64,000 nt of DNA, from the NCBI RefSeq assembly GCF_000317515.1, contig NC_019738.1:99501-163500 (forward strand). The letters are read 5' to 3'. Origin of the DNA: Allocoleopsis franciscana PCC 7113 (GTDB taxonomy: Bacteria > Cyanobacteriota > Cyanobacteriia > Cyanobacteriales > Coleofasciculaceae). Shown piece after piece: positions 24,603 through 28,064 of the stretch. Made by a program: the position numbers and the translations under genes. Under the pieces are notes generated by a model. It was not told where the DNA came from. It worked only from the letters and a program-made list of their open reading frames with translations, and searched no databases. Each line of letters begins with the position of its first letter. The stretch's first letter is position 1.

Positions 24603-25229
24603 TTATCGCCGTTCCCAGGATTGAGGGATGAGATGGAAATCATTCACTAGCCATTTCCCTTGAGTATCCTTGACCAGTTGGATCGAAAATTCGATGGGAT
24701 AAAAGACACCAGGTTCAGAAGTTCGTGCGGTTCCTTTGAGCCAATAGGTATACTTCTCCCCATTCATTGACGATTCTGTTTTGGCTATTGTGAGCGTATT
24801 AGGCCAAGGAGAAGATGTATCTAAACTTGCCAACTTCCTCTTATTGTGTTTACCTTTTTCAGTTAGCCATTGATCGAGTCCAAACTGTATTGAAGAATTT
24901 TCCATTTGACTAGCTAGTGCGCCTGTATCTCGCGTAAAAATAGAGGCCACGACATGTGCTAAAACACCTTCAGGAGACTGGGGATCGCTGCGATTCAGCA
25001 AGTACATCCAATCCGTTAAGTTAAACCAAGCCAGTTCTGGGTTAGCTTCAGTAGTAAGACGGGAACCTAACTTGGAATTTAATTGAGATGAAGCGGTTAG
25101 AGTGGATGGCTGGGGCTTGATTCCTCTGGCCTGAACACGAGTATATTGAGTGTAGGTGGCTACGAGTAGGGATAGAGTAGCGATGAGAGAAAGACCCACC
25201 ACGGTAGAAGGCTTTGATAAAGATGACAT
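24603..25229 (-). CDS. hypothetical membrane-anchored protein
   Basis: Unrecognised 208-residue protein. A short N-terminus and one helix (TVVGLSLIATLSLLVATYT, about 9-27) give a signal anchor. The rest is soluble and presumably extracytoplasmic, with a C-terminal alpha+beta part (KYTYWLKGTARTS, IQLVKDTQGKWLVNDFHLIP) that resembles NTF2-like or ARC6-type conserved domains in shape only. It stands alone between long gaps, and no function can be given. Confidence 0.65.
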   Translation of the reverse strand: MSSLSKPSTVVGLSLIATLSLLVATYTQYTRVQARGIKPQPSTLTASSQLNSKLGSRLTTEANPELAWFNLTDWMYLLNRSDPQSPEGVLAHVVASIFTRDTGALASQMENSSIQFGLDQWLTEKGKHNKRKLASLDTSSPWPNTLTIAKTESSMNGEKYTYWLKGTARTSEPGVFYPIEFSIQLVKDTQGKWLVNDFHLIPQSWERR

Positions 25230-26256: not shown

Positions 26257-27657
26257 ATGCCTAAGAAGGTCGCACTGCTGATTGGAGTGAGTGAATGCGG
26301 AACTCAATTACCTCCTCATTCGGAGGCAACCAATAATGTAGCAGCCATGCAACGAGTTTTGCAAGATCCGAACCTGGGTGGTTTTGACCAAGTAGAGACA
26401 CTGCTCAATCCTGATCTGGGAGCAATGCAAAAGGCAATTCAACAGGTATTTGCCAAATGTGGAGTGAATGACTTAGCACTGCTATTTTTCTCTGGTTACG
26501 TCCTGATTGATCAGGAGGAACATTTCTATTTTACGACCCCGAACACAAATAAAGAGGACTTGCCATCAACAGCGGTACCAGCCAGTCTGGTGCAACAAGA
26601 ATTGATGATTTGCGATGCTAAGCGACAAATCCTGATCCTTGACTGTTGCTACAGTGCCACCCAGACTGAGGGCAAGCCAACCGAAAGTTTAAGTGTCAAT
26701 CTTAATAAAGAATTAGGTGCTACGGGGCGAGCGATTCTCACGTCTTCCACCACGACACAAACGGTTTTTGAACCGGGAGAAGCAAGCCTTTCTCTCTATA
26801 CTCAATACTTAGTAGAAGGGATTGAGACAGGCGCAGCAGATCGAGACGGAGTGGGTTTAATTTATTTGCGGGAATGGCATAACTATGCTAAAAGTAAAAT
26901 CAAAGAAATTAAGCCCCAGTTCGAGCCAAATATAATTCTGGATGAAAAAGAGTTTGATATTCTGCTCACTCTTTTATTGAACCCAGATCCCAATCATGAC
27001 CCAGAGGCAGAATATCGCAAAATTGAATCCAAGTATTTCAAAATTGTTGAAAACTATGAGCGTCTTGGCGAAACATCTAATGTGGTCACACAAACCTTAA
27101 TTAAAAAACAGAAAACATTTGGCCTCAGCATTGATCCCGAAGCACCTGATGACCTCAGTTCTGATTCAGGAATCGACTATACGAGATTGCGAGATTTATT
27201 AAAAGCTGGAGAATGGGAAGAAGCCGATAAGGAAACGTTAATCGTCATCCTAAAGGCTGTTCATCGGCAGACAGAAGGATATCTGAATATCGATTCAATT
27301 GAAAATTTCCCTTGTACGGATCTGCATACCATCGATCAGCTTTGGGTCAAGTATAGTAGTGGGCAATTCGGCTTTAGCGTACAAAAAGAAATCTGGCGGG
27401 GCATTGGTGGCGAATTTGGTCAATATGATAATGCGCTTTACGAGGAATTTGGTCTACGGGTAGGGTGGCGCGAACGCAGTCGCCTGGTGTTAATCACAAA
27501 ATGGAAAAAATATGAAGACCTCAGTTTTTCCTTAACTTGGGCACCCGTAGGTCATCTCCCAACTTTAGCGAGTGGTAAATTGATGAAGTTCGATCAGTTA
27601 AATTTTTGGGGAGTCAGGAGTGATTTTTATGCTCGGATGGAGGCTTGTTGGGTCTAA
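26257..27657 (+). CDS. caspase-like (Tyr/Cys variant) - GUN4 fusion protein
   Basis: A soluble two-domain protein. Residues 1 to about 230 form a caspase p20-like fold: MPKKVALLIGVSE, then LALLFFSGYVLID, then QILILDCCYSA. The usual catalytic His of SGHG is Tyr (about 81), while the Cys of DCC (131) is kept, so this is a probable pseudo-orthocaspase. Residues about 308-467 are a GUN4 tetrapyrrole-binding domain: TRLRDLLKAGEWEEADKET, IENFPCTDLHTIDQLW and GQFGFSVQKEIW. The ATG at 26257 follows TTGGAGGAGCAA, whose GGAGGAG is the ribosome-binding site, so the in-frame TTG at 26245 is not the start. A sensing or scaffold role is inferred. Confidence 0.85.
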   Translation: MPKKVALLIGVSECGTQLPPHSEATNNVAAMQRVLQDPNLGGFDQVETLLNPDLGAMQKAIQQVFAKCGVNDLALLFFSGYVLIDQEEHFYFTTPNTNKEDLPSTAVPASLVQQELMICDAKRQILILDCCYSATQTEGKPTESLSVNLNKELGATGRAILTSSTTTQTVFEPGEASLSLYTQYLVEGIETGAADRDGVGLIYLREWHNYAKSKIKEIKPQFEPNIILDEKEFDILLTLLLNPDPNHDPEAEYRKIESKYFKIVENYERLGETSNVVTQTLIKKQKTFGLSIDPEAPDDLSSDSGIDYTRLRDLLKAGEWEEADKETLIVILKAVHRQTEGYLNIDSIENFPCTDLHTIDQLWVKYSSGQFGFSVQKEIWRGIGGEFGQYDNALYEEFGLRVGWRERSRLVLITKWKKYEDLSFSLTWAPVGHLPTLASGKLMKFDQLNFWGVRSDFYARMEACWV

Positions 27658-27725: not shown

Positions 27726-27776
27726 CGGGCTTTCGGGCGAACTTGAGAATGGTGCAAGAACTCAGTTAAAACCGCT

Positions 27777-28064
27777 TCAGACTGAATCATCTCGCACCAT
27801 GATATCTTGTAGCCTCACATCTCGATGCAGCAACCGATTTTGATGAGCCAGAGCCAGTGCCTTACCCATTGGCTCCATGTAGTGCAACGCTTCATATTCT
27901 GAAAGAATACCGCCATTGGCTAGAGTTTCCCCTGCGATATACTCCATGACGATGCCCCATAGCTGACCCTATTTGATCAGCTCGTAACCTTCAACAAGGT
28001 GAGGATGCTGACACCCATTCAAGGGTAGCGCCTGGTTGAGAGTCAAATTAATCCATCTGTTACT
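27777..28064 (-). pseudogene. remnant of a Hanks-type Ser/Thr protein kinase gene
   Basis: Minus-strand reading gives HPHLVEGYELIK, a stop (27969-27971), then GQLWGIVMEYIAGETLA, a segment like ALHYMEPMGKALALAH, and LLHRDVRLQDIMVRDD before a stop at 27777. These are the hinge and catalytic-loop regions of a bacterial Hanks kinase (the HRDV motif is at 27819-27827). The N-lobe P-loop and the DFG part are missing. Even the catalytic loop departs from HRDLKPxN, reading HRDVRLQD. It is a dead fragment of about 95 codons in the gap before mrp. Confidence 0.65.

Follow-up and report, generated by a model that had tools for sequence, protein, structure and literature searches.

A candidate pseudo-orthocaspase fused to a paralog-type GUN4 domain in Allocoleopsis franciscana PCC 7113

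Results

Domain structure and active site of the caspase-GUN4 protein

A gene for a caspase-GUN4 fusion protein was analysed in a stretch of 64,000 nucleotides from Allocoleopsis franciscana PCC 7113 (NC_019738.1, positions 99,501 to 163,500; hereafter the window). The gene is best read, from its sequence, as a pseudo-orthocaspase fused to a paralog-type GUN4 domain, and the product is probably a non-proteolytic adaptor with a caspase fold and a derived GUN4 domain of the paralog type, which arose by stepwise decay of the active site. The features are collected in Table 1. The reading frame begins with ATG at 26257, and GGAGG is found a few bases 5' of it in the window sequence.

Table 1. Features of the caspase-GUN4 locus, in window positions
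Feature	Position	Strand	Basis
Caspase-GUN4 fusion gene, 466 aa	26257..27657	+	ORF and Pfam
p20 caspase-like domain (Peptidase_C14), aa 3-195	26263..26841	+	Pfam, 45.8 bits (cut-off 21.4)
Codon 27, AAT: Asn where Asp is conserved (putative substrate-pocket Asp)	26335..26337	+	p20 alignment
Codon 81, TAC: Tyr replacing the catalytic His (CAC in the same-genus sister genome)	26497..26499	+	p20 alignment
Codon 131, TGC: Cys kept at the catalytic position	26647..26649	+	p20 alignment
Short linker, aa 236-296, with helices predicted at 249-267 and 275-287 (low confidence)	26962..27144	+	Alignment and model
GUN4 domain of paralog type, aa 302-438	27160..27570	+	Pfam, 133.9 bits (cut-off 29.2)
TLASGK after GHLP, aa 436-441, at the site of the canonical bilin-binding LxNxLR	27562..27579	+	Alignment
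Kinase-GUN4 remnant (pseudogene)	27758..28039	-	tblastn against the intact gene of the sister genome

The first-pass annotation had reported Tyr at the position of the catalytic His (in FFSGY) and a retained Cys (in DCC), and the p20 alignment confirmed both, at positions 81 and 131. The alteration extends beyond the dyad, with Gly82 replaced by Val. The acidic S1 pocket is formed by two conserved Asp residues, of which Asp129 is kept in the window protein and the other is Asn27; position 27 was assigned to the pocket through its alignment with the TbMC2 residues that PMC6426788 cites. Orthocaspases are defined by a p20 fold without a p10, and the p20 fold was found in the window protein by both the Pfam match and the structural matches of the model. 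True orthocaspases carry a His-Cys dyad, in place of which Tyr81 and Cys131 are present here, and the protein falls in the pseudo-orthocaspases, in which at least one dyad residue is replaced and the p20 fold is kept. The p20 domain scored 139.9 bits against the NCBIfam family NF047832 ('caspase, EACC1-associated type'), just below the cut-off of 140.

The AlphaFold2 model had a mean pLDDT of 78, with the p20 and GUN4 cores well predicted and the linker poorly. Its p20 half matched structures of MALT1, caspases including caspase-11, and metacaspase, and its GUN4 half matched the GUN4 structures 4ykb, 4xkc and 7e2r. A sequence comparison with solved structures found the GUN4 proteins of Thermosynechococcus, Synechocystis, Chlamydomonas and Arabidopsis.

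Dyad states of caspase-GUN4 fusions

As the first reading had proposed, the His/Tyr state of caspase-GUN4 fusions was surveyed. The window genome, its relatives, the order and the class were searched, and 133 distinct p20 domains were aligned. Since these domains were picked by similarity to the window p20, the fractions describe this set and are not population rates. The His-Cys (HC) dyad was present in 122 of the 133 domains. GUN4 was fused to 41 of them, and in 34 of these 41 the HC dyad was accompanied by both pocket Asps. The seven deviant fusions were the window gene and six full-length orthologs, exactly one ortholog group, and in the p20 tree they formed one clade (100/99 support) nested among HC proteins. 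The NCBIfam family NF047832 was matched by 40 of the 40 fusions scanned, and a YC dyad was also seen in two aligned p20 domains without detected GUN4.

The state of the active site differed within the clade. The window protein is Y-C with Asn27, and the orthologs of G001 (the sister genome in the window's genus) and G006 are H-C with Asn27 and with Gly82 replaced. Both catalytic residues are gone, with the reading frame intact, in the four orthologs of genus g7, which are K-D in G007, G015 and G019 and Q-D in G018, and all four also have Glu at the Asp129 position.

Order of the active-site changes

At codon 81, G001 and G006 both have CAC and the window gene has TAC, which corresponds to one derived base change in the window lineage. 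Among 58 p20 residues that are otherwise at least 90% conserved, the window protein and the G001 ortholog had lost 13 and 14, respectively, about equal numbers, and the mean loss in 120 reference p20 domains with HC and both Asps was 2.3. Because the G001 gene, with its dyad intact, has lost conserved p20 residues to a similar extent, the decay began before Tyr appeared, and H81Y appears to be a late step in it. In the window protein, 6 of 14 active-site columns and 7 of 44 other conserved columns were lost (p = 0.06); the lean of losses to the active site gave p values of 0.004 (G018), 0.009 (G015) and 0.03 (G001), and was not significant in G006 (p = 0.2), with the active-site column sets for all of these comparisons defined after the losses had been seen. 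From the tree, the ancestor of the clade would have been an ordinary His-Cys orthocaspase. In the window lineage the pocket and flanking residues were altered first and the catalytic His later, and in a sister genus the two catalytic residues were replaced differently, the His by K or Q and the Cys by D.

Selection on the two halves

The dN/dS values (NG86) between the window gene and its G001 ortholog were 0.125 for the whole gene, 0.190 for p20, 0.064 for the linker and 0.060 for GUN4. The HC caspase-GUN4 paralog, compared between this same pair of genomes, gave omega values of 0.056 for p20 and 0.132 for GUN4. The nonsynonymous and synonymous changes in p20 numbered 39 and 53 in the window gene versus 10 and 44 in the paralog (Fisher p = 0.004), and between these two species the p20 of the window gene has an evolutionary rate about 3.4 times that of the paralog. 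None of the seven orthologs, even at 56% identity, has an interrupted reading frame, and the core fold residues are retained. These results indicate that the window gene is under purifying selection and is not a pseudogene, that its fold and reading frame are maintained, and that its caspase half is less constrained than that of the paralog. A shift of constraint onto the GUN4 half was considered and rejected, as the difference in GUN4 omega from the paralog was not significant (Fisher p = 0.19).

The GUN4 half

The first-pass annotation described the C-terminal domain as a full GUN4. This holds for the conserved core, which was recognised at the family level and by the matches to GUN4 structures, and does not hold for the canonical protein as a whole: the N-terminal helical domain of canonical GUN4 is absent, with p20 and a short linker in its place, and TLASGK stands for LxNxLR. 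According to PMC10156173, LxNxLR is preserved in almost every cyanobacterial GUN4 ortholog, its Asn is found in none of the paralogs, and Chlamydomonas GUN4 mutated at this Asn lost bilin binding and kept porphyrin binding. The stand-alone GUN4 of the window genome has LSNQLR after GHLP. Fused GUN4 domains belong to the paralogs without this motif (PMC10156173), and at the homologous place LxNxLR was found in none of the 39 readable caspase-fused GUN4 copies (41 in total, two too truncated). By alignment, the Arg of the motif corresponds to Arabidopsis R211, the residue of greatest importance for Mg-porphyrin affinity; mutation of R211 weakens porphyrin binding (PMC8967248). The window protein has Lys at this position. 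Bilin sensing by the window protein is unlikely, since its GUN4 half has no LxNxLR. More generally, the name of the domain alone gives no basis for reading fused GUN4 domains as bilin sensors, because the motif tied to bilin binding is missing from them.

The window genome encodes 11 GUN4 domains and 14 C14 domains, and the window gene is thus one of a large GUN4-tagged set. Among ten of the 11 GUN4 domains read (L001-L010), LxNxLR was seen only in the stand-alone L001; the others lie in kinase, caspase and unclassified proteins. In one fused copy (L031), LRNLLR occurs at a different site, within an early helix. The tails after GHLP in fused GUN4 domains (e.g., L002, L025, L026 and L040) are very variable and G/W/F-rich, often with an SRxExC-like end.

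Genomic neighbourhood

The window locus is collinear with that of G001, where an intact, convergent Ser/Thr kinase-GUN4 gene of 476 aa (L172:6384-7814) adjoins the caspase-GUN4 ortholog. In the window, 282 bp of this gene are left, with one stop, one frame change and both ends gone. The remnant is a neighbour, and any role for it in caspase-GUN4 function would be conjectural. The neighbours of the caspase-GUN4 gene differ in the other orthologs, and a partner in an operon is therefore unsupported. In G006, a CpeT/CpcT-family gene (L173:4336-4926) lies divergent to the caspase-GUN4 ortholog; no gene of this family was found beside the caspase-GUN4 gene in the window or in G001.

Bacterial conflict systems likewise use caspases and GUN4 as interchangeable modules, and about 70% of the caspases in the effector position of vWA conflict systems are inactive (PMC7159879, PMC8195603). 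Unlike in those systems, none of the neighbouring genes that were examined could be recognised as a MoxR-vWA or EACC1 core component. The EACC1 two-gene system would have a 5' gene for a single-TM EACC1 protein, and the upstream neighbour of the window gene (24603-25229) is on the opposite strand and has no Pfam match. A defence-system reading from a PADLOC match to PD-T4-6 was rejected, because the match lies on the GUN4 region and not on a kinase.

Discussion

From the loss of the catalytic His, a pocket Asp and neighbouring conserved residues, and from the four orthologs without the dyad, we infer that proteolysis has been lost in the window protein; the non-proteolytic caspase fold suggested by the first-pass annotation is in this way well supported. 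The probable non-proteolytic adaptor would use the caspase fold as a non-catalytic binding module coupled to the GUN4 domain. The GUN4 domain might recognise a partner protein or a non-bilin ligand, and the whole may act within the signalling/stress network to which this genome's GUN4-tagged kinases and caspases belong. Against this explanation, Cys131 and Asp129 are kept and weak or altered activity would be possible, two orthologs keep both His and Cys, the faster evolution of p20 would be expected equally from a simple relaxation of constraint, and the linker of the model is of low confidence. Alternatively, the caspase half might simply be decaying: H81Y would be a neutral change in a domain where selection has relaxed, and the protein would be used through its GUN4 half alone or not at all. 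The speed of p20 evolution relative to the HC paralog, the equal number of p20 losses in the HC-intact sister gene, and the adjoining kinase-GUN4 gene that is already a pseudogene in the window all fit such a course. We regard it as rather unlikely, given that the omega of p20 is still 0.19, that the frame is open in seven of seven orthologs and that the core fold residues are retained. The view that the protein is still a cysteine protease, weakened or put to a new use, in which Cys131 is the nucleophile and another group the base, would agree with the retained Cys131 and Asp129 and with the two orthologs that have both catalytic residues. It is very improbable in view of the replacement of the catalytic His by Tyr and of a pocket Asp by Asn, of the loss of Gly82, and of the g7 orthologs, which keep an intact frame without either catalytic residue. 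It is hardly credible that H81Y is a sequencing or assembly error in what is really an HC orthocaspase with a changed pocket: Tyr81 differs from the sister genome by a single C-to-T change, but the assembly has 9 contigs and was scored 100% complete, and Asn27 and the other active-site losses stand whatever the base at codon 81.

The first-pass annotation suggested a tetrapyrrole sensor. On this reading, binding of Mg-porphyrin, porphyrin or bilin to the GUN4 domain would control which state the caspase-fold half adopts. This proposal is weakened and now seems improbable. Its bilin part conflicts with the absence of LxNxLR from every readable fused copy and its presence in the stand-alone GUN4, and Lys at the R211 position also tells against binding. 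The clear GUN4 core fold and the porphyrin binding kept by the Chlamydomonas variant favour it, as does the CpeT/CpcT-family neighbour in one ortholog's contig, a gene that the window and G001 loci do not share. The idea itself is not new: for GUN4 in fusions with caspases, kinases, trypsin and TIR, a role in sensing photosynthetic status allosterically through tetrapyrroles has already been proposed (PMC7159879).

Both the caspase-GUN4 fusion and dead caspases of this type are already known. A 2010 paper described caspase-GUN4 fusions (PMC2853523), 29 orthocaspase-GUN4 fusions, 27 true and two pseudo, were listed in 2021 (PMC8283722), and MaOC3 and MaOC5 of Microcystis aeruginosa PCC 7806 are orthocaspases with a C-terminal GUN4 (PMC5756287). 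The window protein resembles these in having p20 and GUN4 in one chain; most of them are HC with both pocket Asps, whereas the window clade is not, and the fusions aligned with the window protein have longer linkers. With the pseudo-orthocaspases (PMC6426788), such as SyOC of Synechocystis (PMC7889975), it shares the change of the catalytic His to Tyr in a preserved fold. The main cyanobacterial groups of these are YS and YN, and YC is rare but listed (PMC7475262, PMC8283722); they are described with both pocket Asps conserved, whereas one is Asn in the window protein. GUN4 paralogs similarly have the GUN4 core without LxNxLR, the window copy being fused to a degenerate caspase, and no functional assay is known for these paralogs (PMC10156173). 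A clade-wide account of stepwise decay was not found in the main texts of PMC2853523, PMC8283722, PMC5756287, PMC7475262 and PMC7159879. We suggest, as a tentative possibility, that one cyanobacterial family passed from a caspase-GUN4 protease to a dedicated non-enzymatic signalling adaptor by active-site substitutions that differ between related genera, with intermediates (dyad intact, pocket lost) still extant. If so, the family would provide a stepwise natural series for the origin of a pseudoprotease and for what a pseudoprotease gains. With intact, Tyr-Cys and K/Q-D dyads among its seven orthologs, and a canonical HC paralog as an in-genome control, the clade is a small and tractable case of pseudoprotease evolution.

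Two other observations were made on p20 domains of this family. A second dyad-deviant caspase group (L037, L042, L043 and L044; YY, RC, NY and NY, respectively) has a long C-terminal region and clusters with L022, an HC protein of the window genome. A p20 fragment of about 165 aa with an intact HC dyad (L176, at G000:C1 near 1430970 in the window genome, and L019) ends early and was placed in the tree beside the clade holding the window gene, and it is possibly a truncated paralog.
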